Positions 1-17,037 of a stretch of 64,000 bases of DNA are shown one piece after another. The stretch spans positions 1 to 64,000 of the forward strand of contig NZ_JAIUZP010000011.1 in NCBI RefSeq assembly GCF_020171315.1, read 5' to 3'. Made by a program: the position numbers and the translations under genes. Numbering within the stretch: the stretch's first letter is position 1; every line of letters begins with the position of its first letter. Below the pieces are notes generated by a model. It was not told where the DNA came from, ran no database searches, and worked only from the letters and a program-made list of their open reading frames with translations. Origin of the DNA: Pseudooceanicola nanhaiensis (GTDB lineage Bacteria > Pseudomonadota > Alphaproteobacteria > Rhodobacterales > Rhodobacteraceae).

Positions 1-485
1 GCCTTCGCCGCCTTCACGCTGGCGATGGTCGCCTGCGGGTTGGCCCCGATCGACACCACCGAGACCTCGAGAAGGTCGAGCTTCTCCAGCGTCCAGACAT
101 GGGTGTCGGTGTCGACCGAATACTCCCGGATGCGGTAGCCGATGGAGAGCCCGTCGATGTCGCCCTCCTTCAGGAGCGCATAGGCCTCCTGCGCCTGCTG
201 CACCCCCATGTTCAGCTTGCCCCGCATCAGAAGGCCGCGGTCGTCCTCCTCGGCCTCCAGCCACTTGCCGATCGGGCGGCTCGGGTCGTGCTGCCAGAAC
301 ATCTTGGGCATGGTCCCGCGCGCCCTGTGATCCCCGAGGCTGTCGAGGAAAGCCCCGGCCGCGACCACATCGCCGTAACTGTCGGGCTCGCCGCCGAAGG
401 TCGAACCGTAGCCCTCGAACTCGCCCGTCTCCTTCAGCGCCTTGATCTCGAGGACCGGGTTGGCAACCTTGTTAATCGCGTCCAT
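1..485 (-). CDS. HK97-family prohead protease (C-terminus cut by window edge)
   Basis: Phage head maturation protease that cleaves scaffold and capsid precursors inside the prohead. The visible 161 codons carry the family core: the stretch GYGSTFGG near residue 25, the conserved histidine in FWQHDPSRPIG near residue 65, and the serine in GLSIGYR near residue 112. The ATG at 485 overlaps the last codons of the portal gene by 14 bases, so the two are translationally coupled. Order portal then protease is the normal HK97 order. The protein continues beyond position 1, where the major capsid gene is expected. Confidence 0.9.
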   Translation of the reverse strand, partial: MDAINKVANPVLEIKALKETGEFEGYGSTFGGEPDSYGDVVAAGAFLDSLGDHRARGTMPKMFWQHDPSRPIGKWLEAEEDDRGLLMRGKLNMGVQQAQEAYALLKEGDIDGLSIGYRIREYSVDTDTHVWTLEKLDLLEVSVVSIGANPQATIASVKAAK

Positions 486-1698
486 CGCCTGTCTCCATGT
501 TCTGTCCCGCCTCGGTGATCGGCACGTTCTGCATCTGCAGACGCGGCACGTCCCCGCCCTCGACCGGGCCGAGGTTCTCGCGTACCCGCACCTCGTTGAT
601 GGTGAGCCAGCCGTTGCTGAGGCCGGACTGGTAGAAGGCCGAGCGGCTGGCACTGTCCCCGCGCAGCAGCCCCTCGAGGTTGAACTCGACATAGAGGCCG
701 CGCGCGCGGTCGGCCGCGCTGAGGAGCTGCTTGTTCACCGCTTGCTCGATCCGCTTCAGCCGCCGGCGCAGGGTGAACTTCTGGAAGGCCAGCGTCTGCT
801 GCTCCAGCCCGGTACCCCAGCTCGTGCTCTTCTCCGTGTGGCCGATCATGTGCGGCGGCACCCCGAAGAAGCGGCAGATCTCCTCGACCGAGAAACGCCG
901 GCTTTCCAGCATCTGCGCATCTTCCGGGTTGATCGTCAGCGGCGTCCAGGTCGTGTCGCCCTCGAGCACCAGCGGCCGGCCCGTGTTCTGCGCGCCGATG
1001 AAGGTCTCGACCAGCACCGTCTTGGTGATCTCGCGTTGCTCGGCGCTCAACCAGTCCTTGAAGGTCAGCGCCCCCGAGGGCCGCATGCCGTTCTTGAAGG
1101 TGGTCCCGGCCGAGCGGTCGATGGCGCGCGCCAGCCCGAAGGCCTGCCGTCCAAAGTGCAGCGTCGACATGCCGCCCAGCGGGTTGCCCCCGAAGCCCCG
1201 GATGTGCAGCACGCCGCTGTCGGGGCGCACATGGCTCTGCCCGTCTTCCGTCCAGCGGTACTCAAGCGTGCCGCTCTCCCGCCGCCGCACGCTGACCAGG
1301 TCCGGGCGGATCGGCACCAAGGCAATCAGCCGGCCCGAGCTCTCGCGCTCGACCGCCGCATAGGCATTGCCCCAGAGCTCCAGCGAGGCCGCCACGAACT
1401 CCCAGAAGTCGAGTGCGGTCTGATCATAGTTCGGGCTGTCATGGAGCAGCCGGAAGAGCGCGTGGTCGCGCGCGGGCTCCCGGCCCTCCTCCGTGGTCCG
1501 GTAGGTCATCACCGGCAGCGAGCCGATCGAGCCCGCCAGCAGGTTGGTACAGGCCCAGACCGCCGAGAGGCCCAGCACCGTGCTGTCGCTGACGATCTCG
1601 CCGCTGTCGGCCACGGGCCCCGAGGGGCGCCAGCTCTCTGCGTCGGTCAGCGTCACGGGACGCGTGAAGGCCGACTTGATCCAGTGCTTCAGCTTCAA
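472..1698 (-). CDS. Phage portal protein, HK97 family
   Basis: A 408-residue portal protein, the dodecameric ring through which DNA enters the capsid and to which the terminase docks. Family marks are the N-terminal LSAVWACTNLLAGSIGSLP block, the central MRPSGAL block, and the ICRFFGVPPHMIGH segment near residue 270 that is typical of HK97 portals. The length is normal for this family. The start overlaps the large terminase stop by four bases (ATGA) and the gene ends inside the protease start region, so it lies in one leftward late operon. Confidence 0.95.
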   Translation of the reverse strand: MKLKHWIKSAFTRPVTLTDAESWRPSGPVADSGEIVSDSTVLGLSAVWACTNLLAGSIGSLPVMTYRTTEEGREPARDHALFRLLHDSPNYDQTALDFWEFVAASLELWGNAYAAVERESSGRLIALVPIRPDLVSVRRRESGTLEYRWTEDGQSHVRPDSGVLHIRGFGGNPLGGMSTLHFGRQAFGLARAIDRSAGTTFKNGMRPSGALTFKDWLSAEQREITKTVLVETFIGAQNTGRPLVLEGDTTWTPLTINPEDAQMLESRRFSVEEICRFFGVPPHMIGHTEKSTSWGTGLEQQTLAFQKFTLRRRLKRIEQAVNKQLLSAADRARGLYVEFNLEGLLRGDSASRSAFYQSGLSNGWLTINEVRVRENLGPVEGGDVPRLQMQNVPITEAGQNMETGDGRD

Positions 1699-3413
1699 GT
1701 CGAGGCCTCCAGTGCCGCAAAGTAGTCATCCATCCGCGCCGTCGCGGCCGGGTTCAGGCTCATCAGCCAGACGGCATTGAAGAGCGCCATCAGCGGGTCG
1801 ATCTTGCCCGAGCCGCTGACCGCCTTGGTCACGATCACCGCGTTACCGCGGGTCTCGGTCTTGGCGTTGCCGACGCACCAGGTCATGAGCGCCTGGTCCG
1901 CGTGACGCAGCGAGCCGTCGAAGAGCTTGCGCTCGGCCCCCTTGATCGCGCCGTTCAACCGGTAGCCCTGGCTCACCGGCACCAGCATCTCGGTCGGGAT
2001 CCCGTCGAGCTCCAGCGCATCGACGATCGCCGCCACGCCTTCCGGGTCGAGTCCGACGCCTGCCTTCTTCGGCAGGACACCGGCGCGGTGGAGGCTGCCC
2101 ACCAGCGAGACGAGGTCATCCACGTCCTGCGTGGGGTGCTTGCAGATCACCAACTCGCCCGCCTTCTCAAGGTCCTCGAGGATCGGCGCGATGCTCTTGC
2201 GGCGCTCCAGCGCGATCCTGTGCACCCAGGCCCGTGACCAGGACAGCCAGGCCCGGGTCTTCCGCTCGCGCCCCACCACGGTCAGCCCCAGCAGGTCATC
2301 CATGCCGCCGCCGTCGATGCCCGCCACGCAGACCTCGCAGCGCGCGATCAGCTCCTCGAGGGTCAGCCCCTTCACCGTGGCCTCGGCCCAGTAGTCGGCG
2401 CCGATCCAGCGGTCGTCATGAGTGCCGCTGCCGACCTGCACGTTGAAATGCTGGCTGGCGACGAGCGCGAGGGACTCTGTCCCCTCTTCCTCGGCCTTGC
2501 GCAGCTCGTCGCGCAGGTAGTCCATGTCGACACTGCGCCCCATGTGCGGGTTGACCAGTGGCCAGAGCGCCTCGTCCTTCCAGCCGTCCTTGCGCGCGAT
2601 CTCCTCCGGCAGCTCGTAAAGCAGCGGCAGCATCGGCCGCGCCAGCGTGCCGTCGCGCACCGCCCGCGCTGTCTGGATCTCGCTCTTGAAGACCCCGTGC
2701 GGCGCGATCTTCGACTGGGTCGTGATCTGCAGCAGGAAGTGCCGGTTCTTGGGGTGCGAGAGCGCGCCCCGGATCTCGGTGAAGACCCCCTTGGCCGAGG
2801 GCCGGTTGGCGAAGACATGGGTCTCGTCGATCAGCACCGTGGCGTTCTTCAGCCCGGTCACGATGTCGGCGTCGGCCGCTTTGATCATGATCTTCGACGG
2901 GATCTTCGCGTTCAGGTTCTTGATCGTCCGCGTCGATTCCTGCGGCGGAGCGAACAGCGGCCGGATACGCGGCGTCCGCTTGATGATCCCGGCCGCATGA
3001 TCAAACGCCCCGCGCGCCAGTTCGATCGAGGGGGCGATCAGGATGAACTGGGCCTCAGGGCTCATGTTCAGGATGCAGGCGGTGACGATGATGGCCGCGG
3101 CGATGGCCGTCTTCCCGTTCTTCTTCGGGATCATCACGAAGAACTCGCGCAGGTAGCGCTTCTTCACCTCTGGGTCGTAGCTCCCGAAGATCACCCGCAC
3201 CAGGTCGAAGACCCAGTCGTCGCAGACCGCACCATACTCGGGGAAGCCGTCGAGGTCTGGACAGCGCAGCCCCTTGAAGATCGTCAGCGCCTTCTCGGCG
3301 TAGGCGTCGTGGAGCGGCAGCTCGGGGAAGAGCGAACCCCGCGTGCTTATGCGATCCTTCCAATCCGGCACGGCCGTCGACCAGGACAGCGGCAGCGCGA
3401 CCGGGGTGATCAA
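1695..3413 (-). CDS. Terminase large subunit
   Basis: A 572-residue packaging motor. The N-terminal ATPase has a Walker A-like loop in IPKKNGKTAIAAA near residue 95 and a Walker B in ATVLIDETHVF near residue 190. The C-terminal nuclease begins with CVAGIDGGGMDDL near residue 335, which carries the first acidic metal ligands. It cuts concatemeric phage DNA and pumps it through the portal. The gene overlaps its neighbours on both sides by four bases, giving a tight small terminase, large terminase, portal series. The length matches phage terminases of the Terminase_1 type. Confidence 0.95.
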   Translation of the reverse strand: MITPVALPLSWSTAVPDWKDRISTRGSLFPELPLHDAYAEKALTIFKGLRCPDLDGFPEYGAVCDDWVFDLVRVIFGSYDPEVKKRYLREFFVMIPKKNGKTAIAAAIIVTACILNMSPEAQFILIAPSIELARGAFDHAAGIIKRTPRIRPLFAPPQESTRTIKNLNAKIPSKIMIKAADADIVTGLKNATVLIDETHVFANRPSAKGVFTEIRGALSHPKNRHFLLQITTQSKIAPHGVFKSEIQTARAVRDGTLARPMLPLLYELPEEIARKDGWKDEALWPLVNPHMGRSVDMDYLRDELRKAEEEGTESLALVASQHFNVQVGSGTHDDRWIGADYWAEATVKGLTLEELIARCEVCVAGIDGGGMDDLLGLTVVGRERKTRAWLSWSRAWVHRIALERRKSIAPILEDLEKAGELVICKHPTQDVDDLVSLVGSLHRAGVLPKKAGVGLDPEGVAAIVDALELDGIPTEMLVPVSQGYRLNGAIKGAERKLFDGSLRHADQALMTWCVGNAKTETRGNAVIVTKAVSGSGKIDPLMALFNAVWLMSLNPAATARMDDYFAALEAST

Positions 3414-3940
3414 TGGAACCGCTCCGGGTTCAGCAGGTCATCGTCCTCGATCACTGCAGCAGCCTCGGCCGTGAGCTGCTCCTTCTTGCCCTTGGGCAGC
3501 GGCGCCTCCTTCCGCTTCGGAGCATCGTCGCCGACCGCCTGGCGCGCGAGCTCCGCCATGTCCTCCTCGTCGAGGATCGCCTTGATCGCCTTCATTGCCG
3601 AGACGTTGCCCGCATCGGCCGCCTCGTCGAGCCGGAGCAGGATCTTGGCGCGCGCCTGCTTGCGCGCTGCCGCCCGCGCGTCCTTCAGGTTCAGCCGACC
3701 ATTCTGAAAATAATGCTTGTTCAGAGTGGGTTGGCTGATCCCCAGCTCCTCCGCGATCTCCTTCTTCGGCACGCCAGCCACGTGCAACATCCTGACTTTG
3801 TTCAGAGATTTTGCGTTCGGCGTATGCCCGTTCGCCCCCGGCTTGCCGTGGTTCGCCGGGATTGGATCGCCAAGCAGGTCAAAATCGCGGGCCACAGAAA
3901 AAATTCTCCGAGTGAGGGGGGCACGGGGCTTCCGCGCCAA
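3410..3940 (-). CDS. Probable terminase small subunit (HTH DNA-binding)
   Basis: A 176-residue protein with a clear helix-turn-helix (KKEIAEELGISQPTLNKHYF, about residues 60 to 79) followed by a basic helical stretch (ARAAARKQARAKILLRLDEA). It lies directly upstream of the large terminase with a four-base overlap, where the DNA-recognition subunit normally sits. The HTH is what is seen in the sequence; the terminase role is inferred from position and domain type. The acidic and lysine-rich C-terminal third is probably the oligomerisation or large-subunit contact region. Confidence 0.75.
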   Translation of the reverse strand: MARKPRAPLTRRIFSVARDFDLLGDPIPANHGKPGANGHTPNAKSLNKVRMLHVAGVPKKEIAEELGISQPTLNKHYFQNGRLNLKDARAAARKQARAKILLRLDEAADAGNVSAMKAIKAILDEEDMAELARQAVGDDAPKRKEAPLPKGKKEQLTAEAAAVIEDDDLLNPERFH

Positions 3941-3979
3941 AGGCTGTGAAGTTTGGACCCGCCCCCCGCCGTCGCGAGG

Positions 3980-4360
3980 TCAGAGCCCGTCCGAGAGCCA
4001 GCCGGCCTTCTCCTGCCGCTGCTTCTCGCTGTCGTGCCAGGCCTTGCTGACCGACTGCAGGTTCGCCGGATCGAAGAAGAGAGCCTCGTCTCCGCGGTGC
4101 GGGCGGATGTGATCCACCACCGGGCTGTTGGGCGCGGGCGCCTTGCCGGTCAGCCGGACGCCGGTCTGCTGGCAGGTGAAGCCGTCGCGCCGGAGCACCT
4201 CCAGGCGCAGCTGCTTCCAGCGCTTGGTGTTGTAGAGGGCGCGGCCTGGCATGATCGCCGCGCGTTGCTTCGACCGCTCCGCTTCGGTGGATGGCAGGAC
4301 CAGGCGCGCAGGTTGACGCCCGAGGCGCCCGCCGACGCCACGACCGGATAGTCGTCCCAT
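3980..4360 (-). CDS. Phage HNH endonuclease next to terminase
   Basis: A 126-residue HNH nuclease. The core reads TKRWKQLRLEVLRRDGFTC, then VVDHIRPHRGD, then NLQSVSKAWHD, giving the H, N and H of the fold. The zinc-type cysteine pairs are mostly missing, since only one Cys is visible in the core. HNH proteins beside terminases help cos or headful cleavage in HK97-like phages. I chose the ATG at 4360 because an AGGA lies six bases upstream and the N-terminus MGRLSG resembles other phage HNH proteins. An upstream TTG at 4387 is also in frame. Confidence 0.85.
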   Translation of the reverse strand: MGRLSGRGVGGRLGRQPARLVLPSTEAERSKQRAAIMPGRALYNTKRWKQLRLEVLRRDGFTCQQTGVRLTGKAPAPNSPVVDHIRPHRGDEALFFDPANLQSVSKAWHDSEKQRQEKAGWLSDGL

Positions 4361-4508
4361 GAGATGTCCTGAAGATGCGCCAGCCAAGGGCCGGACATGG
4401 AAACGCCCGGCAGCTGATGCTCAGCTCCGGGCGCAGTTCGTGATGATGCCCTATGGGTAAGATCTGGTTAGGCTAACCGTCAAGAGGCTAATTTACGCCC
4501 AGCAGCGA

Positions 4509-4670
4509 TCACTGCCGCAGCTCCCTGATAACGCGCTGGATTTTACGCCAGTCCTCCGCCTCATCTTCCCGTCTCCCGGCTTCGCACGCCCGGATGCGCG
4601 CAGCGGCCTCCGCTTCGGCCGCGGGGCCATGGGCGCGCAGCAGCGCGGACGCCTGTTGGGCGATGTTCAT
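4509..4670 (-). CDS. Small phage-region protein, 53 aa, unknown
   Basis: A short alanine- and glutamate-rich helical protein (starts MNIAQQASALL, ends RVIRELRQ). The reading frame continues upstream, but the ATG at 4670 is preceded by a very strong ribosome site (AAGGAGGA, about eight bases away), so this start is preferred over a 141-residue version. It has no recognisable domain. It is the most upstream gene of the packaging block and lies next to the putative cargo boundary. Confidence 0.6.
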   Translation of the reverse strand: MNIAQQASALLRAHGPAAEAEAAARIRACEAGRREDEAEDWRKIQRVIRELRQ

Positions 4671-5045
4671 CTGTTGGATGGGTCCTCCTTCCGTCGCCCT
4701 CTCCTCTGAGCGACGGCCCGACCATACCATAAGTGGCGGGTATACGCATGTTTGAGGGTAAGAGAACCTGCAGGGAATCGCGCCAGGGACGGGCAAACAG
4801 CTCTTTGCGGAAGGTCGCGCAAGGCTGAGCATGACAACGAGCACCGACACGAAGGGCGGAAAGCGGGCATTCGCTGCGTTGCGGACGGTTGTCGGCGATA
4901 CCGAAGCAGCTGACTTTCGGTTTGCGGACAACATCGCGGAACATAGTACGCCCGGCGTGATTTTAGCGACCAGGGGCTAGATGACAGATGAACCAGTCTC
5001 GATCACTAGTGGCAAAGCTCGGTCAGACACCGATCAACGCCAGGT
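4671..5045. other. Gene-free stretch at left border of the sigma/anti-sigma block
   Basis: About 375 bases with no convincing gene. It lies upstream of the small leftward gene at 4509 to 4670, so it should hold the late-operon promoter, but no clear promoter was identified. It contains one copy of a 12-base direct repeat (5027 to 5038) whose partner is at 10053 to 10064, and AGGGGCTAG at 4972 to 4980, whose inverted copy is at 10036 to 10044. Confidence 0.5.
5027..5038. repeat. 12-base direct repeat, left copy (ACACCGATCAAC)
   Basis: Identical to 10053 to 10064. The two copies bracket the whole sigma/anti-sigma block, one beyond each end. This could be a scar of insertion, or chance: a 12-base match between two regions of about 300 bases is unlikely but not impossible. 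Confidence 0.35.
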
Positions 5046-5753
5046 TCAAATGACTGGATCGTTCGCCCTGCCAACACCCAGGATCGGACCTGTTGGAAGG
5101 TTCGTGGGCGAGCCGCCTGCAGGTTCCAGCGTTATCTCGTAGAGCTGCCGAGCGGTCGGGGCGGTGAGCCCGTGGATGGTCAGTGTCTCCGAGGTTCCAT
5201 CGGCGAGCAACCCCAGAGAGACTGGCGGGCCTGCGTCGTCGGGCTTTGTCCAGACCTGCATGACCTGGCCACTTGGAACGGCAGGCTGCTCCAGCAGGGT
5301 GATGCGGGTGGTGTTGTCCGGTGCGCTCTCCACCAACGCGACGGCGCCGCCGCTTGCATCCAGAAGGACCGTTACCACCAGTGGCGGCGTGGGCGTCAAC
5401 AGGGACCATCCCGTGAGGAAGGCCAGCAGCACCGTTGCCGCAACAGCGCCGTAGGTCGCCCGGCGCCAGCGCGCAAGGCGGGCCCGCACATCGTCAAGCT
5501 CCACGATCTCCGCCGGTGCGGCGGGAACGTCGGGGACGTCGAGCCGGTCGGTGAGGCGGTTCCAGAAACCCTCAGGCAGGGGCTTTGGCGCGGCTGTGTC
5601 ATCAAGTGGGGCAAAGCGCAGGCGGGCGCGCTCCAGCAGGGCTGCGACAGCTGGGTCTTCGGCTGCCATTCGGTCCAGCTTCGCGCAGTCCGCGTCAGAG
5701 GCCAGGCCCAGAACGACCTCGTCGATCATTACTTCAAGAGAATACTCTGTCAT
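5046..5753 (-). CDS. RskA-type anti-sigma factor (pair 1)
   Basis: A 235-residue membrane anti-sigma factor. A cytoplasmic N-terminal sigma-binding region (about 1 to 95) is followed by one membrane span (ATYGAVAATVLLAFLTGW, about 98 to 116) and a periplasmic RskA domain with the family blocks VPSGQVMQVWTKP, PVSLGLL and LYEITLEPAGGSP. It should hold the ECF sigma factor encoded just upstream at the membrane until a signal triggers proteolysis. The ATG at 5753 overlaps the sigma stop by four bases and has GAGGGAG eight bases upstream. A GTG three codons earlier is in frame. No zinc-type HxxxCxxC motif is visible. Confidence 0.88.
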   Translation of the reverse strand: MTEYSLEVMIDEVVLGLASDADCAKLDRMAAEDPAVAALLERARLRFAPLDDTAAPKPLPEGFWNRLTDRLDVPDVPAAPAEIVELDDVRARLARWRRATYGAVAATVLLAFLTGWSLLTPTPPLVVTVLLDASGGAVALVESAPDNTTRITLLEQPAVPSGQVMQVWTKPDDAGPPVSLGLLADGTSETLTIHGLTAPTARQLYEITLEPAGGSPTNLPTGPILGVGRANDPVI

Positions 5754-6427
5754 GACAGACACTCCCTCAGTTTGAGCAATCCGCGCCGCATCCGGGCCTT
5801 GACCGTACCCAGCGGGCTATCGAGGCGACCGGCGATCTCACCGTGACTGTACCCCAGCACATAGGACGCGAGGATGGCGTCACGGGTCGGGCCGTCCAGA
5901 CGGTCAAGACATTGGCGCAGTCCGGTGGCATCGTCCAGACCGCCATAGGCGCTGGCCAAGACTTCGGGTACCGGGGTAAGGTCGACATCCGCCGCATCGC
6001 TGGTGACCTCACGTTCTTCGCTGCGCAGCATGGTCAGGCATCGGTTCCGCAAGATCGTATAGAGCCAGCCCTTGGCACTGCCGCGAGCGGGATCGAACTG
6101 CCCCGCACGACGCCAGACAAGAACAAGAGCATCCTGCACCGCATCTTCCGCCAGATCGGAGCGGCGCAGCATGCGCCGGGCCACGCCCAGCATACGCCCG
6201 CCCTCGGCATCGACAATGGCCTTCAGGGCCGAGCGGTCGCCTGATGCGCAGGCGATGAGCAGCGCGGAATGGTCCGTTTCGATGACTTTCTCTCCCCTCC
6301 CGCCGGGGCGCGCCCCTTCAGTGGATACAGGGCTAGTCAACGATGGATCGGCTGTCAAACCAGATGACGGGACCCGAGGCCGCCGTCCCTCGATCGGGAC
6401 GGCGGGTGATATCGCGCAGTCGCTCAC
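5750..6427 (-). CDS. ECF RNA polymerase sigma factor (pair 1, SigK-like)
   Basis: An ECF sigma factor of up to 225 residues. Region 2 covers GRMLGVARRMLRRSDLAEDA and the following VWRRAGQFDPARGSAKGWL; region 4 carries the HTH in GYSHGEIAGRLDSPLGTVKA. The first 45 residues, before VIETDHS, are proline- and glycine-rich and unlike sigma region 1.2, and no other ATG or GTG lies closer to the domain. I kept the GTG at 6427, which overlaps the stop of the DUF4394 gene. It is coupled to its anti-sigma factor downstream. The likely targets are its own operon and perhaps the FAS1 gene. Confidence 0.9.
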   Translation of the reverse strand: MSDCAISPAVPIEGRRPRVPSSGLTADPSLTSPVSTEGARPGGRGEKVIETDHSALLIACASGDRSALKAIVDAEGGRMLGVARRMLRRSDLAEDAVQDALVLVWRRAGQFDPARGSAKGWLYTILRNRCLTMLRSEEREVTSDAADVDLTPVPEVLASAYGGLDDATGLRQCLDRLDGPTRDAILASYVLGYSHGEIAGRLDSPLGTVKARMRRGLLKLRECLS

Positions 6428-7227
6428 ATCTCGTCTGCGGTCATGAAGGTGATGTCGCGGATCACGTTGTCACCCGCCCCCTTGATGTCCCAGCTTTCCG
6501 TTATCGCACCATCTTCGAGCGACACGGTGTGCAGCTGACCGGCGGCCACCAGCCAGGCGGTGTTGGTGCCCTCTGCATCGGTGGCGATGTCGAAAGCGTA
6601 GCTGTCGGAGGCGTCGATGCCCAGCTTGCCCACAGCGGCCAGCGTACCGTCATTGGGCGAGGTCTGCCGGATCAGCGCCACGATGGTGCTGTCGATGTCG
6701 TACATCGCGGTGCCTTCGGGCTTGCCGTAGCTATTGATGTAGGCGGCAGCGACGATGGCTGGTGCTTCGCCCGCGTGCATGTCCTTCTCCTCGAAGGCAA
6801 GCGAGCCGTCCACGGTCACGGCACCGCTTTCGATGTCGACGCGGTGGTTGGTGGTGCCGGACATGAAGCGCAACTTGTCCGCCATCGGGTTGAAATCGAC
6901 GATCACCGGTGCCCCCTCCATGACCGGCAGTTCGGTATCCATGGTGGAGATCACGGTGGACGCACCGGTCATCGGGTCGATCTCGACGATGTCGAACGTA
7001 TCGGTGACGCCGATCAGCTGGCCGTTGGAGGGGCGCAGATCGATGCCCAGAAGGCGGTCGATGCCGGTCACTTCCATGCTTTCGCCCACGGTGGCCGTGC
7101 CCGCGTCGATCATGTGCAGCATCTTGTCACCGCTCAGGGCAACGGCCTTGAGGCCGTGGTCATCCGCGTGGGCGACGGTTGCGGTCAGGGCCAGCAGGCC
7201 GAGGGTCGCAGTTGCAGTCTTCATCAT
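6424..7227 (-). CDS. Exported DUF4394 domain protein
   Basis: A 267-residue protein with a signal peptide (MMKTATATLGLLALTATVAHA, cut before DDHGLK) and one DUF4394 domain, a beta-propeller-like repeat protein: IDAGTATVGESMEVTGI, LLGIDLRPSNGQLIGV, VIVDFNPMADKLRFMSG. The function is unknown; it is expected in the periplasm or outside the cell. It is the first gene of a three-gene operon with an ECF sigma and an anti-sigma factor and so is a probable sigma target. GAGGAG lies seven bases before the chosen ATG. The motif TGCATCCA lies 77 bases upstream and is shared with the FAS1 gene. Confidence 0.85.
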   Translation of the reverse strand: MMKTATATLGLLALTATVAHADDHGLKAVALSGDKMLHMIDAGTATVGESMEVTGIDRLLGIDLRPSNGQLIGVTDTFDIVEIDPMTGASTVISTMDTELPVMEGAPVIVDFNPMADKLRFMSGTTNHRVDIESGAVTVDGSLAFEEKDMHAGEAPAIVAAAYINSYGKPEGTAMYDIDSTIVALIRQTSPNDGTLAAVGKLGIDASDSYAFDIATDAEGTNTAWLVAAGQLHTVSLEDGAITESWDIKGAGDNVIRDITFMTADEM

Positions 7228-7304
7228 CTTCAATCTCCTCAATGGGCTTCGGCGCGGGGTATTCCGCGGCCTCGCTACCCCCATGACTCCCAGCGGATGC
7301 GGTT

Positions 7305-7312
7305 TGGATGCA
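7305..7312 (-). promoter_or_regulatory. Candidate ECF promoter element TGCATCCA upstream of DUF4394 gene
   Basis: TGCATCCA (minus strand) lies 77 bases before the DUF4394 ATG. TGTATCCA lies 75 bases before the FAS1 ATG at 9130 to 9137, and both follow a T-run a few bases upstream. Equal spacing before the two probable sigma targets suggests a shared -35-like element. No common -10 element is clear. Confidence 0.35.
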
Positions 7313-7400
7313 TGGCGGCAAAATTTTTTCTGATTTTCTTTCGAGGAGATGAGTAGGACGGGATGAAAGGCAGACTGGTACAAACGGCCCTGTCTCTGGA

Positions 7401-7676
7401 TCAACTTGCCACGGCGCGCCTGCGGCCAAGTGAAGGCGCTATCTCGACGGCTGCGAGGATCAGCGTCGACAGCCCGACGATCGGAACGAAGACCCCCGCC
7501 GCCACGGCCGTCACAACCTGGGTGTGCGGGATACGCCAGCCCACTGGATGCTCGGCACGCCCATCGTGCCCTTCGTTGCGCCTTGGGCACGCGTCAACAA
7601 AGTGCAGCCAGTGGACATGAGGTAAGCGTATCTCATCATAGCAAAGTTTCCGACGAGAGCTTCGGCACGAGCTCTC
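7401..7676 (-). pseudogene. Possible remnant of a membrane protein gene
   Basis: An open frame of about 91 codons with no start codon in a sensible place. Its last 50 residues look like a real protein end: a histidine-rich linker (HPVGWRIPHTQ), a strongly hydrophobic span (VVTAVAAGVFVPIVGLSTLI) and a basic tail (GRRRAVAS). The upstream part is arginine-rich and uninformative. It lies between two divergent sigma operons. It may be the 3' end of a lost integral membrane gene; I do not recognise the family. Confidence 0.3.
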
Positions 7677-7859
7677 TCAGGTCGCCTCACCCGATGTAGA
7701 TTGACCGGCTCAAAAATGGCCGGTGTTTCAATGCCATCGCGAACGCTGGCGCAGGGCCCACGGCTTGCCGGCCTTCCGCCGCGGCGATGGCCATCTTCTT
7801 CGCTGGGCTTGACATTGGGCGTGTTTGGCATGCGTCCTGACCTCTCAAGAGGGGGACCC

Positions 7860-8417
7860 ATGACCGAGGAACCGCTGGCTGAGATCCTCTTGCGCATGGC
7901 GCAAGGGGAGCGCGCCGCACTGCGCAACCTCTATTCCGAAGCCGGCCCGAAACTTTTCGGGGTCTGCATTCGTATGCTCAAGGACAGGGCCGAAGCAGAA
8001 GACGCGCTACAAGAGATCTTGGTAAAGCTGTGGAGCAAGGCACATCAGTTCGACCCCAGGCGCGGCCGATCAACGGCCTGGGCCGTGACCATCGCGCGCA
8101 ACCATTGCCTCGATCGCCTGCGCGCGCGCACGGCTGCATTGCAACGTGAAGCCACCGGATCGAATGAGCGGGCCATGTTGGAGGTAGCCGACACCGGGCC
8201 GGGACCGGAAACTCTTGTCGAGATGAAGGACGAGGCGCGGCGCATCTCCGACTGCCTCGCAACGCTCGAAGCCGACCGTGCCACCGCGATCCGGAGCGCC
8301 TATCTTGACGGGCACAGCTATGACGCCATTGCGCGCGCCCTCGGGATCCCGGTGAACACCCTGCGCAGCTGGCTGCACCGTGGCCTGCGCAAACTCAAGG
8401 AGTGCATGGACGCATGA
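7860..8417 (+). CDS. ECF RNA polymerase sigma factor (pair 2)
   Basis: A 185-residue ECF sigma factor. Region 2 runs through KLFGVCIRMLKDRAEAEDA and FDPRRGRSTAWAVTIARNH; region 4 has GHSYDAIARALGIPVNTLRS. It belongs to the same broad type as the sigma factor of pair 1 and is encoded divergently from that operon. The ATG at 7860 is chosen because the sequence before it is a purine-rich ribosome site (AAGAGGGGG) and the protein then begins directly with region 2. It overlaps the anti-sigma gene by four bases and heads an operon that ends with the FAS1 gene. Confidence 0.92.
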   Translation: MTEEPLAEILLRMAQGERAALRNLYSEAGPKLFGVCIRMLKDRAEAEDALQEILVKLWSKAHQFDPRRGRSTAWAVTIARNHCLDRLRARTAALQREATGSNERAMLEVADTGPGPETLVEMKDEARRISDCLATLEADRATAIRSAYLDGHSYDAIARALGIPVNTLRSWLHRGLRKLKECMDA

Positions 8418-9115
8418 CCGAAGACGAGACCCCCGATCTCGCGGCCGACTACGTACTGGGGCTTGCCTCAGCCGAGGAGCGCGCGCGGGCCGAGGACAGG
8501 ATCGCCCGCGATCCGGTCTTTGCGCAGGAGGTCGAGAGCTGGCAGGCGCGTCTTTCGCAGCTGAACACCGAATTCGACGCCGTGACGCCCCCCGCCGCTG
8601 TGCTGGACCGGGCCGAGCGCAGCCTGTTCGGAACACCCCAACGGCGGCGCATTGGCGTGCTGGGCTGGCTGCGCAGGGCCGGCGCAGGTCGCGGTACGAC
8701 CGAGACCACCGTCCGGGGCGTGCCGCGCCCGCGGTTTGCGATCTTGCTGGGGCTGGCCGCAGTAACGACCGTGGCGCTCATGGCGTTCTGGGATATGCCT
8801 CTCTACCGCTCCGGCCCGCCGCTGGCAGACCTGAGCGCGCCGGATCTGCAAATCACCATCCACGGCGACACCCAGCGGCTGATATTCCGCCGCGTTTCAG
8901 CGGCCCCCGACCCCGAGGGGCAATCATACGAGCTGTGGCTGATCCGCGATGGGCAGGTCGCGTCCCTCGGGCTGCTCGCCCCGGAGACGACCGAGGTCCG
9001 CGCAGAGGTGCGCGCGGGCGATGTCCTGGCGGTCAGTCTGGAGCCCTCGGGGGGCTCGCCCCTCGCCGGCCCCAGCGGGCCGGTGCTGGCAACGGCGCAG
9101 ATCCCCAGCCTTTAG
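8414..9115 (+). CDS. RskA-type anti-sigma factor (pair 2)
   Basis: A 233-residue single-span membrane protein. The N-terminal part (DLAADYVLGLASAEERARAE) matches the anti-sigma domain that precedes RskA; the membrane span is FAILLGLAAVTTVALMAFW, about residues 105 to 123; the C-terminal RskA domain has QSYELWLIRDGQVASLGLL and LAVSLEPSGGSPLAGPSGP. It overlaps the sigma gene by ATGA, the usual coupling that keeps sigma and anti-sigma in step. Like the pair-1 protein it lacks a zinc-binding anti-sigma motif. Confidence 0.9.
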   Translation: MTEDETPDLAADYVLGLASAEERARAEDRIARDPVFAQEVESWQARLSQLNTEFDAVTPPAAVLDRAERSLFGTPQRRRIGVLGWLRRAGAGRGTTETTVRGVPRPRFAILLGLAAVTTVALMAFWDMPLYRSGPPLADLSAPDLQITIHGDTQRLIFRRVSAAPDPEGQSYELWLIRDGQVASLGLLAPETTEVRAEVRAGDVLAVSLEPSGGSPLAGPSGPVLATAQIPSL

Positions 9116-9129
9116 CGCCAAGATTTTTC

Positions 9130-9137
9130 TGTATCCA
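9130..9137 (+). promoter_or_regulatory. Candidate ECF promoter element TGTATCCA upstream of FAS1 gene
   Basis: It lies 75 bases before the FAS1 start and matches TGCATCCA, which lies 77 bases before the DUF4394 start. This suggests that the FAS1 gene has its own sigma-dependent promoter in the 97-base gap after the anti-sigma gene. Confidence 0.35.
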
Positions 9138-9212
9138 TGTGCAACGCGGGCGAGCGCGCCTTCGTATCCCCTGTAGCCCCGGACGAAACCGGCGCTTTCA
9201 GGAGGAAACATT

Positions 9213-9776
9213 ATGACCAACATCAAGTTCACCCCCGCCCTGGCACTCGGCCTCGTCGCGGCCCTTGGCACAGCGGCCCCGGCCCTTGCCGCAAACCCGA
9301 TGGTCGGCGGCGCCGCGATGTACGAGACCAAGAACATCGTCGAGAACGCCGTCAACTCGGCCGATCACACGACGCTGGTTGCCGCGGTCAAGGCGGCCGG
9401 CCTGGTCGAGACCCTTCAGGGCCCCGGGCCGTTCACGGTCTTCGCGCCCACCAACGCGGCCTTCGAGATGCTTCCGGCCGGTACGGTCGAAACACTGCTG
9501 AAGCCGGAAAACAAGGCAATGCTGACCAAGGTTCTGACGGCGCATGTGGTGGCCGGCGACTGGACCGCGGCGAAGATCGCACAGAAGGCCCGGGCGAGTT
9601 CGGACGGACTGGCAAACTTCACGACAGTTTCGGGCGACGCCCTTTCGGCGAAAGTGCGCAACGGGATGCTTTACGTCTATGACGAAAGCGGTACGGTTGG
9701 CCGCGTGACGATCGCTGATGTCGATCAGTCGAATGGCGTGATCCACGTGGTCGACCACGTCCTGGTGCCCAAGTAA
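9213..9776 (+). CDS. Secreted fasciclin (FAS1) domain protein
   Basis: A 187-residue exported protein. A signal peptide (residues 1 to about 26, ending PALA) is followed by one complete FAS1 domain with the H1 motif GPFTVFAPTNAAFEMLP and the H2 motif NGVIHVVDHVLVP at the end. FAS1 proteins act in adhesion or at the cell surface. It follows an ECF sigma/anti-sigma pair; in Mycobacterium, SigK and RskA control the FAS1 proteins MPT70 and MPT83, so this is probably a sigma target. The ATG has AGGAGG upstream. This is not a normal phage structural protein. Confidence 0.93.
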   Translation: MTNIKFTPALALGLVAALGTAAPALAANPMVGGAAMYETKNIVENAVNSADHTTLVAAVKAAGLVETLQGPGPFTVFAPTNAAFEMLPAGTVETLLKPENKAMLTKVLTAHVVAGDWTAAKIAQKARASSDGLANFTTVSGDALSAKVRNGMLYVYDESGTVGRVTIADVDQSNGVIHVVDHVLVPK

Positions 9777-10059
9777 GCGTTCTATCGATTGATGTGCCCG
9801 CGACGCCAAGCGTGTCGCGGGGGCAGTCCTTCACTCCCGATCCAGGCCGCTCTCCTGCTCAAGATGCCGTTTCCGGAGAAGCTAACCTTCGCCCCATGCC
9901 CGTTGCGGGTTCTCACAGCGGGCCTTTGGTTGCAACGGCATATGGCACGATGTTCTGGATGACCGCTTCGGGGAAGCTGCAATGCGGCGAGGTCCAACCT
10001 AGCGAGTGTCCGGAGAGGGCCGTTCGTGACACGACCTAGCCCCTCGCCAACAACACCGA
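9777..10059. other. Gene-free border between FAS1 gene and phage early genes
   Basis: This 283-base stretch separates convergent genes. A GC-rich hairpin just after the FAS1 stop (CCCGCGACGC, seven-base loop, then GTGTCGCGGGGG, around 9798 to 9822) may end transcription. Near its right end it carries the inverted CTAGCCCCT and the right copy of the 12-base repeat. No gene was seen. Confidence 0.45.
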
Positions 10060-10064
10060 TCAAC
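10053..10064. repeat. 12-base direct repeat, right copy (ACACCGATCAAC)
   Basis: Partner of 5027 to 5038. It overlaps the stop codon of the last phage gene before the block, so an insertion here would have left that gene complete. Confidence 0.35.
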
Positions 10065-10872
10065 CAGAAACGCGAGCAACCCCTTGCCCTCGCATCCGCT
10101 CCAGCGCCTCTTGGAGTGCTCTGCGGCAGCGCTCAACACTCCCCTGATCCACCGCCCAGCCATGCGCCCGCAGCACCTCGCTGATCGTCATGCCCCCGAT
10201 GCAGACCTGGTCCACCAGCGCCTGGTCGAAGATCGCCTTGCGCTTCTTTGCCCCACCTGGCCGGATGCGGCGCACCGCCTTCGCCAGCCCGCCGCCGATC
10301 CGACGCTCGAAAACACGCAGCCGCTGGAAGTCCCGCAGCATCGCCACCTCGCGATCACCTCCCCCACTGCCCGACACGTTCAGCGTCTCCAGCGAGGAGC
10401 ACTTCACGCCCGAGGAGGCGCAGCGCTCCACCAGCGCGGCGTAATCGCGGCCCACCTCGATCTGACCCACCGTGAACGGCGGCTGAAAGACCGGCACCGG
10501 CTGCCCGGCCTTCTCTGCCTTTGCCACCAGCGCGCGGTGCCGGTTCTGGGCCTGCCGGGTCATGACGTCGAAGGCATCAGCCACCCGGGCAGCCCTGAAC
10601 ATGACCCTGCTCTCGGGGTCGACCCAGCCATCGCGCCGCACCCGAGGCCCGGCGGGCGTCATCTCGGTGTGGCGAGGCATGAAGGCCACCATGGGCCCGC
10701 GCGCCGGGGCCACCGGCATGGCCGGGCAGACGCCTTCGGGCGGTGCCGCGGCTGCCAGTACGGCGGCGATCGAGGCCGCCGTTGCCTCGTTAGCCGCAAG
10801 CGGGAGCCGGCCCACTTGCGCCGTCCCGAGGCGGGAGACGTAGATCACCTGGTCCTTGCGGAGCGCGCTCAT
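10060..10872 (-). CDS. Phage protein, last of the early operon, unknown (possible late-gene regulator)
   Basis: A 270-residue protein without a family I can name. The C-terminal 70 residues are basic and end in a helix-turn-helix-like stretch (MTISEVLRAHGWAVDQGSVE). The middle has a conserved-looking block (VGRDYAALVERCASSGVKCSS). It is the last gene of the leftward early operon, and in related layouts the packaging genes would follow directly; such a position fits a late-gene activator or antiterminator, but that is inference. The start overlaps the preceding gene by ATGA. Confidence 0.7.
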   Translation of the reverse strand: MSALRKDQVIYVSRLGTAQVGRLPLAANEATAASIAAVLAAAAPPEGVCPAMPVAPARGPMVAFMPRHTEMTPAGPRVRRDGWVDPESRVMFRAARVADAFDVMTRQAQNRHRALVAKAEKAGQPVPVFQPPFTVGQIEVGRDYAALVERCASSGVKCSSLETLNVSGSGGGDREVAMLRDFQRLRVFERRIGGGLAKAVRRIRPGGAKKRKAIFDQALVDQVCIGGMTISEVLRAHGWAVDQGSVERCRRALQEALERMRGQGVARVSG

Positions 10873-11480
10873 GCCGCGTCCCCCGCTTCGGCCTGCCGCT
10901 TGTCGATACCCGCCTGCACCATGGCCCGCGCCCGTGCTTCGAGGCCGCGGTACCAGCGCAGCTCCTCACGGGCATGGGCGCCAGGCTCGAAGCCCCGGTG
11001 CAGCTTGTCCTCGGTCACCTCGACCATCCGGGCCAGAGTCTCGCTCCGCTCGGTGATCATGCGCAGTTCGCGCTCGTCGCGCGGAGGGCGCAGCCGCTTC
11101 TCCCACCACAGGAAGGTCGCAACCAGGTTGCCGTTTTGCAGCGCCGCGAGACCGGCGCGCGAGGCGAACCAGCTCGCGGCCCGGGGCAGTTCCTCAAGGC
11201 GGCGCGGCTCGTAGCTGTGCGCCACGCCGATCAGCGAGACGGGCTTCGGCCAGAAGCAGCGGGCCGAGCCCTCGCCATTGCGCAGCAGCCATTCCAGCAG
11301 CGCTGCCAGGGCCGCGTCACCGAGATAGGCCAGGTCATCGCAGATCCGGTCAAGAGCGCGCTTCTGCTCGGCCTCGGGCGTGCCCTTCTTGAACCGCATG
11401 CCGGCTTCGGTCGCGGGCTCGATCAGCATGCGCCGGACCCGGCCGCGGGCGGTTTCGGTGGTGGTCTGCTCGTCGGTCAT
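10869..11480 (-). CDS. Phage early protein, unknown
   Basis: A 203-residue, largely helical protein rich in arginine, glutamate and alanine. The blocks LAYLGDAALAALLEWLLRNG and SWFASRAGLAALQNGNLV are the best ordered parts. It resembles no enzyme I know. It lies between the replication-like gene and the 270-residue protein with a four-base overlap downstream, so it belongs to the early leftward operon. It could be a replication accessory protein; nothing in the sequence proves this. Confidence 0.65.
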   Translation of the reverse strand: MTDEQTTTETARGRVRRMLIEPATEAGMRFKKGTPEAEQKRALDRICDDLAYLGDAALAALLEWLLRNGEGSARCFWPKPVSLIGVAHSYEPRRLEELPRAASWFASRAGLAALQNGNLVATFLWWEKRLRPPRDERELRMITERSETLARMVEVTEDKLHRGFEPGAHAREELRWYRGLEARARAMVQAGIDKRQAEAGDAA

Positions 11481-11493
11481 GGCTTGCCCCTTC

Positions 11494-12261
11494 TCAGCTC
11501 AGCCCGGCTGCCGCACGCTCGTCCGGCGTGAGCAGGTCCGCTGCGATGATGTGATCCCGAACCCATGGCTGCTCGTCGGCGATGGCCTGCATGCGGCCTT
11601 CTCGGAAAGCGGCGACGGCGCGCGCCGCCGCGGCGATGACCATGGGGTTGTCGGAGGGCGCCCGCGCGCGCGCCCGCGCTTCATGGTTCATCCATGGTTT
11701 ATCCTTATTATAGGGACCGGCAGTTTTGCCCCCCTTTCGGCGCAAATTTGCCCCCCTTTCTCCGGCCTCAGGGTTGCATGGATGCCCCCCTTTCGGGCCG
11801 CTAAAGGCTAGCATGTCTGCACCCCTTTCCGGGCCATAGACCGGAAGCTGGCGCCCACGCCACACGCGCACCAGCCGGGTGCTCACCAGGAACCCGAAGC
11901 TGCTGCTGGAGCCCCGATGCTCGCCCGGAACGTGGACAATCCACTCCCCCTCGACCAAGTCTCTCACCGCCCGCCTGACCGTGTCGTCCGACTTGTCAAA
12001 CTGTGCGCCGAGCTGCCGGAACGAGGGCGTGCAGCGAAGGGTCTTGCGCTGGGTGTAGTCGAATGCGAGCGCGTGCAGCAGGACCATCGGGAAGAGCTTC
12101 AGCGTCACGTCGGAGCGGACCATCTCCAGCATCTCGAACCGCGCCCGCTCCCATTCCGTGACCCCGAGCATGCGCCTGCCCGGGCCGACGGCCGCCTCCA
12201 GCTCAGGCTTGCGGGGATCAAATTCCCCCACGTCGGCCCGCTCATTTGCCTCTCTCATCAT
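11494..12261 (-). CDS. Phage winged-helix protein, possible replication initiator
   Basis: A 255-residue protein. Residues 60 to 115 form a winged-helix unit (TLRCTPSFRQLGAQFDKSDD, then TVRRAVRDLVEGEWIVHVPG) of the kind found in phage and plasmid replication initiators and GntR-like DNA-binding domains. The central part is low-complexity and basic (GGHPCNPEAGERGANLRRKG). The C-terminal part is helical (NPMVIAAAARAVAAFREGRM). Its place in the middle of the early operon fits DNA replication. The initiator role is inferred from fold and position. Confidence 0.65.
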   Translation of the reverse strand: MMREANERADVGEFDPRKPELEAAVGPGRRMLGVTEWERARFEMLEMVRSDVTLKLFPMVLLHALAFDYTQRKTLRCTPSFRQLGAQFDKSDDTVRRAVRDLVEGEWIVHVPGEHRGSSSSFGFLVSTRLVRVWRGRQLPVYGPERGADMLAFSGPKGGHPCNPEAGERGANLRRKGGKTAGPYNKDKPWMNHEARARARAPSDNPMVIAAAARAVAAFREGRMQAIADEQPWVRDHIIAADLLTPDERAAAGLS

Positions 12262-12500
12262 CCAACCTCGCTCAGGAACGCCTCGACCGCCGGGCCGAGG
12301 CCCACGAGGTCATGACGGAGTTCATCATCGACCGCCCCAGAGGCGATCGGCGGCCCTGCCGGGCCCGGCATGTCGGCCGACAGGTCGCTGACCCGCAGCG
12401 CCCACCTCCGGGCACCGCACTCCGTAGCGACCAGCTCCAGCCACAGGTGTCCGAAGGGCAGCACGAGGCGGCGCGCAATCGTCAGCGGCGCGGCCGTCAT
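12258..12500 (-). CDS. Small phage early protein, unknown
   Basis: An 80-residue acidic protein with a beta-type N-terminal half (LPFGHLWLELVATECGARRW) and a short acidic tail. It overlaps the genes on both sides by ATGA. No domain was recognised. The conserved overlaps and the antiparallel-strand pattern support a real gene. Confidence 0.6.
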   Translation of the reverse strand: MTAAPLTIARRLVLPFGHLWLELVATECGARRWALRVSDLSADMPGPAGPPIASGAVDDELRHDLVGLGPAVEAFLSEVG

Positions 12501-12649
12501 GCTGCCCTCCGGGTCGGCGCCCGTGAGTGATGACCGGCTACCTCGGCGGGCGCCCCGCCGGTCAGAAGGGCCGGGAGGCCACGTGCACTGCCCCTCTCCG
12601 GGGGCTTGGTGCGGCGGGGCCCGCCTAGGGTCATGCGTTGCCAGGTCAC
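12497..12649 (-). CDS. Very small phage early protein, 50 aa, GTG start
   Basis: A 50-codon frame that fits exactly between its neighbours. A GTG start overlaps the stop of the upstream gene (GTGA) and its own stop overlaps the ATG of the downstream gene (ATGA). The product is arginine- and proline-rich (starts MTWQRMTLGG, ends APTRRAA). There is no separate ribosome site, so it would depend on translational coupling. The double overlap is the only strong support. Confidence 0.45.
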   Translation of the reverse strand: MTWQRMTLGGPRRTKPPERGSARGLPALLTGGAPAEVAGHHSRAPTRRAA

Positions 12650-12849
12650 GGTGGGCCCTCCCACGGCGCAGTGGGCAGCGTGACCGGGCTGCGACTGAAT
12701 TCCCCGCTCACGATCGCGCGGACGGGCACATGGACGATGGTCCTGTCGCCGTGCACGTCGCGAGCCAAGGGTACGGACGCATCCGGATCGCGCGCGGTGA
12801 GCTGGCGCATCTTCGGAGGGCGTCCGAGGAGATCATCGCGCGCGCTCAT
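12646..12849 (-). CDS. Small phage early protein, unknown
   Basis: A 67-residue protein (starts MSARDDLLGRPPKMRQL) with a beta-like centre (DRTIVHVPVRAIVSG). It is coupled by ATGA to the gene before it and by GTGA to the 50-codon gene after it. No family was recognised. Confidence 0.55.
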   Translation of the reverse strand: MSARDDLLGRPPKMRQLTARDPDASVPLARDVHGDRTIVHVPVRAIVSGEFSRSPVTLPTAPWEGPP

Positions 12850-13295
12850 CCGCCCTGCCCCCGCAAGGGTACCGGCCCGGTTGAACGCGCCTCGCAGAGC
12901 GCGGCCATGGCCGCGTGTTTGTCCGCCGCCTCGCGATGTTCGACCGCGGCCTGGGCCCAGTCCTGCGCAGTCTCGGACCGCGCCGCGCGGAGGCTGGCCT
13001 CCAGCGACTCGCCGTGTTCGCGCGAGGTCTCCCCTATGAGTTCGTAGGGACAGGCGTCGCCGGGTGGTTCCGCCACCTGTGCGCGGTAGGCGTCGAAGCA
13101 GGGATTGTGCGTCGCGTCCATCAGCGCCCAGGCCCAGAGCAGCGGCACTTCCGCGTTGCCATTCTCGATCCTGGACAGAGACCCGAGACTAATCGAGTGG
13201 CCAACCGCCGAGGCGATCGTCGCAGCCGCGGCCTCTTTGCCACCTGACTGCGTCACTAGGTTCCTGAACATCTGCGCTGCGACTTTAGGCTGCAT
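12846..13295 (-). CDS. Phage regulator-like protein, first gene of leftward early operon
   Basis: A 149-residue protein. Residues 20 to 60 (AAAATIASAVGHSISLGSLS, then RIENGNAEVPLLWAWALMDA) resemble an HTH of the XRE/CII type, where a recognition helix is followed by RIENG. The C-terminal half is helical (EHGESLEASLRAARSETAQD). Its place as the first gene of the early operon, after the Cro-like gene, matches a CII-type activator. The role is inferred. It overlaps the next gene by ATGA. Confidence 0.6.
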   Translation of the reverse strand: MQPKVAAQMFRNLVTQSGGKEAAAATIASAVGHSISLGSLSRIENGNAEVPLLWAWALMDATHNPCFDAYRAQVAEPPGDACPYELIGETSREHGESLEASLRAARSETAQDWAQAAVEHREAADKHAAMAALCEARSTGPVPLRGQGG

Positions 13296-13409
13296 CAGAA
13301 ACGCCTTTTCCTTGGGGTTCTAGAGGGCACGCCGCAAATTGCCGGCATGGGACATTTAGAGAACGGCCGAGAGAGGCAGACCCGAACGGCGCACCAAGAG
13401 CGAGAGATT

Positions 13410-14436: not shown

Positions 14437-14727
14437 ATGTCCAACGTTCACGTCCTCACGGCCCGCAGTCGCGTCCTGCACGCAGGAAAATACCTCGGAC
14501 AGCCCGCCCTGATCACCGACGCCTGGCTCCAGCTGAAAGAGCAGCAGGGCTATCCCATCACGGTTGATCGCCTCGCGCGGATCGAAACCGGTCAGCCCTC
14601 GGCGGGCCCCACACTGGTCGCGCCGCCTGTGCGCGCCACGTCGATGCTGGCGCGCCTGCACGGATCACAGCCCCTCTTCCACTTCACCCTCCCAGACGAC
14701 GGCGATTGCGGGGGCGACGCGGCATGA
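14437..14727 (+). CDS. Phage early protein, unknown
   Basis: A 96-residue protein (starts MSNVHVLTARSRVLHAG). The stretch LITDAWLQLKEQQGYPITVD, then RLARIETG, is HTH-like but weak. AGGA lies nine bases before the ATG. It is the first gene of a rightward five-gene series that ends with the excisionase-like gene, under operators shared with the switch region. Confidence 0.6.
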   Translation: MSNVHVLTARSRVLHAGKYLGQPALITDAWLQLKEQQGYPITVDRLARIETGQPSAGPTLVAPPVRATSMLARLHGSQPLFHFTLPDDGDCGGDAA

Positions 14728-14849
14728 GTCCCCGCCCCGCCCCTGCCCGCCAGCCGGACATCGCGACGCTGATGACCCGATGGATGATTGCTTCCGCGCT
14801 TATTACCTCCGGCAGCCTCGCCGCGACCCTCGTGGCCCTGTGGTTCTAA
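14724..14849 (+). CDS. Small single-span membrane protein, 41 aa
   Basis: A 41-residue frame (starts MSPRPAPARQPDIATLMTR) that consists of a basic head and one hydrophobic span (MIASALITSGSLAATLVALW). It overlaps the preceding gene by ATGA. Small membrane proteins of this type occur in phage early regions; the function is unknown. Confidence 0.5.
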   Translation: MSPRPAPARQPDIATLMTRWMIASALITSGSLAATLVALWF

Positions 14850-14895
14850 GCCCACGCCCCGCCACCGGGGCTGCGACGGATGACAGGAGACTGAC

Positions 14896-15135
14896 ATGAA
14901 GAACAAGCTCTCTGACCTGAACAACCACCTCTTCGCGCAGATGGAGCGCCTCTCGGTCGACGACATGAGCGCCGAGCAGCTGGAGATCGAGGTGAAGCGC
15001 GCCGACGCCATGGTGTCGATCGCAGACCAGATCACGGGGAACGCCGAACTCCAACTGAAGGCGGCGAAACTCTTCGCCGAGCACGGCAACAACGTGCTGC
15101 CCATGCTCCCGCAGATCGGAGGCAAGGCGGAATGA
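14896..15135 (+). CDS. Small phage early protein, helical, unknown
   Basis: A 79-residue, almost wholly helical protein (MKNKLSDLNNHLFAQMERLS, then EQLEIEVKRADAMVSIADQI). It is preceded by a GGAGACTGAC ribosome site. This kind of short coiled protein is common beside phage HNH genes, but I cannot name a function. Its stop lies inside a tandem 15-base duplication at the junction with the HNH gene. Confidence 0.65.
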   Translation: MKNKLSDLNNHLFAQMERLSVDDMSAEQLEIEVKRADAMVSIADQITGNAELQLKAAKLFAEHGNNVLPMLPQIGGKAE

Positions 15136-16973: not shown

Positions 16974-16984
16974 AGAATCGCACC

Positions 16985-17037
16985 ATGCGTAATTTTCCGC
17001 ACATCGTGCGTAGATTATGCGTAATCGTATGCGCGTT
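16985..17037. repeat. Direct repeats upstream of the integrase (arm-type sites)
   Basis: ATGCGTAAT at 16985 and 17017, with variants GTGCGTAGA at 17006 and ATGCGCGTT at 17029. The unit starts are 21, 11 and 12 bases apart, near whole helical turns. They lie between the integrase start and the tRNA, as expected for integrase arm sites or an autoregulatory region. Confidence 0.6.

Follow-up and report, generated by a model that had tools for sequence, protein, structure and literature searches.

Why does a prophage carry two complete extracytoplasmic function (ECF) sigma factor switches, and are they really part of the phage? This question is raised by a locus in Pseudooceanicola nanhaiensis (NCBI RefSeq assembly GCF_020171315.1, a genome of 4.8 Mb), in the first 64,000 nucleotides of contig NZ_JAIUZP010000011.1 (contig C11 here). 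We call that stretch the window, and its first base is the first base of the contig. An initial annotation, made from the letters alone, had described two ECF sigma/RskA-type anti-sigma pairs, with a DUF4394 gene and a FAS1 gene, between phage early and packaging genes, and it had proposed that they give a lysogen a signal-responsive surface programme. Our analysis makes it likely that these six genes form a 5.17-kb mobile block of host type with two self-contained sigma switches, which this prophage carries as cargo and which recurs, its ends unchanged, at two further, unrelated sites.

The block spans window positions 4852 to 10022, beginning with AAGGGCGG and ending with GGGCCG. The edges given before, 5027 and 10064, were near these and are corrected here to those of the repeated unit. 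There are two divergent operons. The leftward one (minus strand), which we call module 1, has the DUF4394 gene D (6424-7227), the ECF sigma gene S1 (5750-6283) and the anti-sigma gene A1 (5046-5753). The rightward one (plus strand), module 2, has the ECF sigma gene S2 (7860-8417), the anti-sigma gene A2 (8414-9115) and the FAS1 (fasciclin) gene F (9213-9776). Gene starts were chosen by hand from the sequence. In hmmscan, the Pfam domains of all six were over curated cut-offs: Sigma70_r2/r4 in S1 and S2, RskA_C in A1 (E value, 3.5e-20) and A2 (1.3e-15), DUF4394 in D (6.6e-60), and Fasciclin in F (1.2e-32). These assignments bear out the divergent six-gene layout. In both pairs the sigma stop overlaps the anti-sigma ATG, read from the sequence as ATGA, and D and F are probably exported, judging from signal peptides recognized by eye. 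The G+C content of the block (0.62 to 0.69 in 1-kb steps) is not conspicuous against its surroundings.

Two further copies place the block outside this phage. One is in the same genome, on the 1.0-Mb contig C1 (588753-593922), and is 98.3% identical to window 4852-10022 by blastn. On one side of it is an insertion-sequence transposase gene with an integrase core domain, in a stretch that recurs in other genomes of the genus, and on the other side are aminotransferase, amidase, and peptide-transporter genes. No phage packaging or structural gene was found among the flanking open reading frames (ORFs) checked (11 against Pfam and 4 of locus L004 against PHROGs), and one HNH gene in the flanks had weak PHROG matches. 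The other copy, 98.4% identical, is in Maritimibacter alkaliphilus SY-2-18, within an insertion at a tRNA-Ser gene. It begins 375 bases from the 3' end of that gene, and synteny between SY-2-18 and the P. nanhaiensis genome stops exactly at the tRNA-Ser end. The insertion, whose far end lies beyond the contig, also holds an integrase-like gene (261 amino acids, probably partial) and a ParB-like gene. A search for the block outside phages in Rhodobacteraceae, which the initial annotation had proposed, thus found it at two places away from this phage. The complete block was in 2 of the 22 genus genomes, P. nanhaiensis included (two copies, with one in SY-2-18), so it is not fixed in all relatives. 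Among 394 family genomes, 289 had some match to it, and the listed matches outside the P. nanhaiensis genome were partial only, mostly to the FAS1 gene.

The three copies are almost equally distant from each other. Pairwise identity is 98.28% between window and C1, 98.41% between window and SY-2-18, and 98.10% between C1 and SY-2-18. The window copy resembles C1 no more than it resembles SY-2-18, which rules out a recent local duplication. Copy-specific differences number 36 in the window, 52 in C1, and 45 in SY-2-18. Pooled ratios of nonsynonymous to synonymous polymorphism (pN/pS) are 0.154, 0.189, and 0.162. All six reading frames are intact in every copy, and the block genes have been under purifying selection. 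In core DNA, the two species are far less alike than in the block: three stretches of 3.3, 3.3, and 7.3 kb have identities of 92, 91, and 90%. Therefore, the block moved between these lineages after they split.

In the window, the block interrupts a phage. To its left, all on the minus strand, PHROGs identified portal (472-1698), the terminase large subunit TerL (1695-3413), and HNH (3980-4387) genes, and 472-4387 also holds a small gene at the place of terS. To its right are early genes (10060-12261, minus strand), two without a PHROG and one weakly replication-like, which are common to a sister prophage piece on contig C2 and to IMG/VR phages. Farther on, a tyrosine integrase gene (16011-16973, minus strand) adjoins tRNA-Leu(TAA) (17135-17219). 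SY-2-18 has the same tRNA-Leu, and its DNA is syntenic (92%) from window 17116 onward, with no match to window 16900-17115. Searching IMG/VR viral contigs with TerL gave 16 related loci. In five of them, an early-protein homologue is found upstream of HNH, at a distance of 0.2 to 1.2 kb, and TerL and portal come next. The homologue is of the 10060-10872 protein in L170 and L174 and of the 10869-11480 protein in L168, L173, and L176, and terS was found in four of the five. In L174, only 163 bases separate the ORFs at 7957-8775 and 8939-9364, with no block. Because relatives without the block keep the order early gene-HNH-TerL-portal, both flanks belong, by this comparison of gene order, to one phage and not two. 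This excludes the possibility, raised at the outset, that the integrase region and packaging genes are separate elements, and the view of the block as prophage cargo between early and packaging genes is well supported. At a distance from the block, window 20477-20583 is an imperfect palindrome (82%), and the letters 20536-20583 resemble short stretches that recur about a dozen times in the genome.

How did the block come to be there? All three copies have the identical start AAGGGCGG and the identical end GGGCCG, with unrelated letters beyond, so that, as for a transposon, the same ends occur at independent sites, here three. A classic transposon was set aside, because the six proteins include no transposase and no target duplication was seen. 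The left end is part of a degenerate dispersed repeat that begins AAGGGCGG.AAGCGG.CATTCGC (C1:588753, C11:4852, and L123-L152). A 23-letter pattern of it, with up to 3 mismatches, occurs in 18 of the 22 genus genomes (about 66 matches, counted by hand from the listing, with contexts viewed for 30 loci), compared with one match to the control. Likewise, about 80 bases at the very right end resemble dispersed stretches that finish at about the same place (10 shown).

These repeats would also fit passive capture, in which a single homologous recombination at a dispersed repeat put the block into the phage and separate recombinations produced the other copies. We see this as a serious contender, somewhat short of an even chance. 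Besides the coincidence of the block ends with dispersed genus repeats, it gains from one of two sister prophage pieces that lie on separate contigs of the genome. The piece at the end of C2 matches window 10124-13321 and 14447-15135, and the piece on C3 matches 422-2414 and 3589-4876. On C3, the repeat start is at the very point where likeness to the window is lost, and there is no block, which points to a repeat as the place where the block went into the phage. Past that point, C3 has an RTX calcium-binding gene and a DDE transposase gene (L012:40-1185 and 3023-3622), and the site may be a cargo hotspot of the phage. However, when the C1 and SY-2-18 copies are inspected by eye, their left flanks have no repeat arm outside the block, so recombination alone does not account for them easily. 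A bolder version of the mobile-block reading, in which a 5.2-kb signalling cargo without a transposase, with dispersed-repeat ends and two insulated switches, hops among phages, tRNA-linked insertions, and other sites, is one that we offer tentatively and think rather doubtful.

Alternatively, the block could be a phage moron that the phage keeps for lysogenic conversion, its switches reshaping the lysogen surface on a signal. In favour of this, it has promoters of its own and sits between the early and packaging genes of a phage whose relatives keep the same order without it, its genes bear the mark of purifying selection, and its products are probably exported. However, that selection may act on the block rather than on the phage, and the same block is outside this phage in the same genome and in another species. 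None of the six block proteins was found in the 16 related IMG/VR loci (E ≤ 1e-4), only 9 of which have a recognizable HNH gene and so show the insertion site. Neither did larger collections point to a phage home. Block DNA had no match in 50,697 phage records, and the DUF4394 and A2 proteins had none in the phage collection or IMG/VR, where S1 and A1 were not searched. In the phage collection, FAS1 had one match (36%) and S2 had ten (23 to 30%). In IMG/VR, FAS1 had two (L165 and L166), whose fetched DNA contains no relative of a sigma or anti-sigma gene, and there was one sigma match (21%). Both scans were seeded by short peptide patterns and may miss relatives. We consider a moron unlikely.

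The only phage-collection record with both FAS1 and a sigma, MT838434.1 (L241, "Bacteriophage sp.," an unverified human-faecal scaffold), has a FAS1-sigma-RskA-like cassette but no phage gene by our reading of its ORFs, and it is probably bacterial DNA. The uncultured phages cr50_1 and cr10_1 have annotated phage sigma or sigma-W-like factors that are 23 to 26% identical to S2. We found no description of the two-module pair on a phage in the literature covered, including passages of PMC7509140, PMC7406223, and PMC6180224; most subscription journals were outside that coverage.

A very improbable explanation is that the assembly misjoined the contig through a copy from elsewhere. C11 does start at window position 1, its phage genes are near DNA repeated on C3 (window 422-2414), and the longest run identical to the C1 copy is 354 bases. 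Even so, both block junctions are inside one contig, and the 36 differences of its own mark the window copy as separate. Finally, a fixed chromosomal locus later surrounded by phage genes is barely conceivable, because, common as the modules are in relatives' genomes and plasmids, the distribution of the full block contradicts it and the surrounding phage order is kept in other phages without the block.

We also examined how the modules occur elsewhere. D is accompanied by both S1 and A1 at 40 of 43 DUF4394 loci from named genomes, with D and S1-A1 in the same direction at 29 of the 40. Both modules were in the fetched DNA at four of the 43 (SY-2-18, Alloyangia pacifica L192, A. mangrovi, and Salipiger mangrovisoli). 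The head-to-tail order S2-A2-F-D-S1-A1 is found in L192, A. mangrovi, S. mangrovisoli, and two A. pacifica plasmids, and A. pacifica L196 has module 1 with no module 2 in the fetched stretch. The closest relatives of module 1 are in Tropicimonas and Mangrovicoccus (D, 95 and 91%) and those of module 2 are in Alloyangia/Salipiger (F, 90 to 91%). Because these differ, the block may be a composite. Judged from these loci, each module is widespread in Rhodobacterales, plasmids included. A phage-specific invention is ruled out by this and by the C1 and SY-2-18 copies, and a phage-specific logic of the switches is not supported.

The conserved S1 start is unusual in some copies. There is no ATG or GTG near it in the window, C1, SY-2-18, L215, L187, and L186 copies. 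These six have an ATC after a GGAG-like stretch, and in other relatives the codon after that position is GTG. L215 has an in-frame TAG upstream, and no ATG, GTG, or TTG lies between this TAG and the ATC. The longest S1 ORF in the window extends to 6427, and translation may start at the ATC (6281-6283).

The intergenic gaps contain conserved promoter-like motifs. Within 320 bases upstream of D, TGCATCC is present at 42 of the 43 loci (0.033 expected per stretch), and the 43rd has CGCATCC. At 34 loci it is followed 14 to 19 bases on by a GAGTC or GTGTC box (0.012 expected), as in the putative ECF-type promoter of the window (TGCATCC...GAGTC; 7285-7312, minus strand). Nine rows miss this strict pattern, seven of which have a variant box by eye (AAGTC, CGTGT, or CGTC). 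In the whole genome, the pattern TGCATCCAAA-N(10-16)-GWGTC has two sites, those of the two block copies, and the control has none. Because the pattern is confined to the block copies, the S1 switch looks local and not host-wide, with the proviso that a looser motif could hide targets. A host-wide S1 regulon is thus unsupported. So is a host-wide surface programme of the lysogen; the genome already has the C1 copy.

In the A2-F gap, (C/T)G(A/C)AAC-N(14-20)-CGT is present in all 16 rows (0.03 expected per stretch), a pattern picked after those rows had been viewed; the rows are not independent, since two of them are block copies and four are near-identical Alloyangia/Salipiger sequences. The candidate F promoter in the window is TGCAACG...CGTATCC (9140-9169, plus strand). 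Its -35 box differs from that of D, and so the two switches probably do not cross-activate. TTGACA occurs within 140 nucleotides upstream of S1 at 22 of 40 loci (0.019 expected), and the window has a sigma70-like TTGACA-17-TAGCCC at 6330-6358 (minus strand, read from the sequence). S1-A1 may therefore have a housekeeping promoter between D and S1. A sigma70-like stretch also precedes S2 (7808-7837, plus strand), and its TTGACA is conserved in Alloyangia/Salipiger. A generic scan found no terminators, and its three promoter matches do not include these sigma70-like sites. We infer which sigma reads which promoter from position and conservation.

These features would fit two parallel circuits. 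A housekeeping promoter would supply a little of each sigma together with its membrane-spanning anti-sigma, which would hold that sigma inactive. A signal from outside would loosen the anti-sigma, and the freed sigma would then act at the ECF-type promoter in front of the gene for the exported protein of its own module. In module 1 this would express DUF4394 and, by read-through, S1-A1, and in module 2 it would express FAS1. The signal, the release of the anti-sigma, and the pairing of sigma and promoter are what we infer for this scheme, as is the mode of movement for the block.

We found no paper on DUF4394 in our literature search. An AlphaFold2 model of D from 30 sequences is all-beta (predicted local distance difference test score, 88), and most of its best PDB matches by Foldseek are beta-propellers (LRP6, NHL, and similar), with 8 to 15% identity and template modelling scores by query length of 0.32 to 0.57. 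From this model we would guess that D binds or senses something outside the cytoplasm.

Both sigma factors have the Mycobacterium tuberculosis SigK-RskA complex as their best PDB match (SigK, 4nqw_A; E values, 4.1e-24 for S1 and 5.5e-25 for S2). SigK has two cysteines, 133 and 183, as described in PMC7509140, and both align in S1 and S2 by eye. However, S1 and S2 do not pass the NCBIfam SigK model PRK09646 (124.1 and 142.9 bits, with a cut-off of 226). An RskA_C-type anti-sigma gene is directly downstream of the sigma gene in both modules. The FAS1 gene adjoins the module 2 pair and module 1 has DUF4394 instead, and the promoter boxes would make each the target of its switch. The likeness to SigK/RskA seen by the initial annotation is supported as far as the nearest structures go.

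Several observations weigh against a mobile block with two such switches. Only three copies speak for its movement as a unit, the phage placement of the window copy is that of the deposited assembly, and there was no target-site duplication when the flanking letters of the three copies were compared by eye, no perfect terminal inverted repeat at the block ends, and no transposase among the six block proteins examined (sigma, anti-sigma, DUF4394, and FAS1). As for the switches, D points away from S1-A1 at 11 of the 40 loci, so read-through is not general. A tighter F pattern matched the two copies and one further genome site, and its reversed control also had two matches. The anti-sigmas are below the NCBIfam general anti-sigma cut-off (95.3 and 81.8 against 100 bits), and the A2 N-terminal profile matched the RskA chain 4nqw_B with an E value of 0.39, which is not significant.

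ECF sigma switches are usually regarded as fixed chromosomal regulators. Here, two complete switches appear as one packet at three sites in two species, one of the sites being a prophage. The surprising part is the apparent mobility of complete sigma circuits, and the block is better called host-derived, with the prophage a mere carrier. It is a natural case in which to ask whether alternative sigma circuits can spread ready-made, as insulated modules, and whether phages contribute to that spread. For DUF4394, the analysis provides a sigma factor that probably controls it and a structural model that is all-beta and propeller-like.

How does the block compare with known systems? Phage morons are host-type genes with their own promoters inserted in a conserved phage order. 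The block is likewise such an insertion, but it is also found outside this phage with the same ends. Cassettes flanked by miniature inverted-repeat transposable elements are mobile units bounded by repeats and without a transposase. The block shares with them the same ends at several sites, repeat-like ends, and the lack of a detected transposase; it differs in that neither target-site duplication nor perfect inverted ends were found. Alloyangia/Salipiger loci (NZ_CP154654.1, NZ_CP022191.1, and L192-L194) have the same six families adjacent, at 58 to 91% protein identity, but head-to-tail and not divergent, and the two annotated Alloyangia plasmid stretches have no phage genes nearby, unlike the prophage copy. 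A further comparison is with the mycobacterial mpt83-sigK-rskA cassette, whose MPT83 is a FAS1 protein. Module 2 likewise combines a SigK-like ECF sigma, an RskA_C anti-sigma, and a FAS1 protein, and it may work in a similar way, but we do not claim membership for it because the sigmas are below the curated SigK cut-off. That cassette is found in mycobacteria and also in Yersinia, according to PMC7509140. In P. nanhaiensis, by comparison, DUF4394 takes the place of FAS1 in module 1, and two cassettes stand back to back on a prophage, in a block that is repeated elsewhere.

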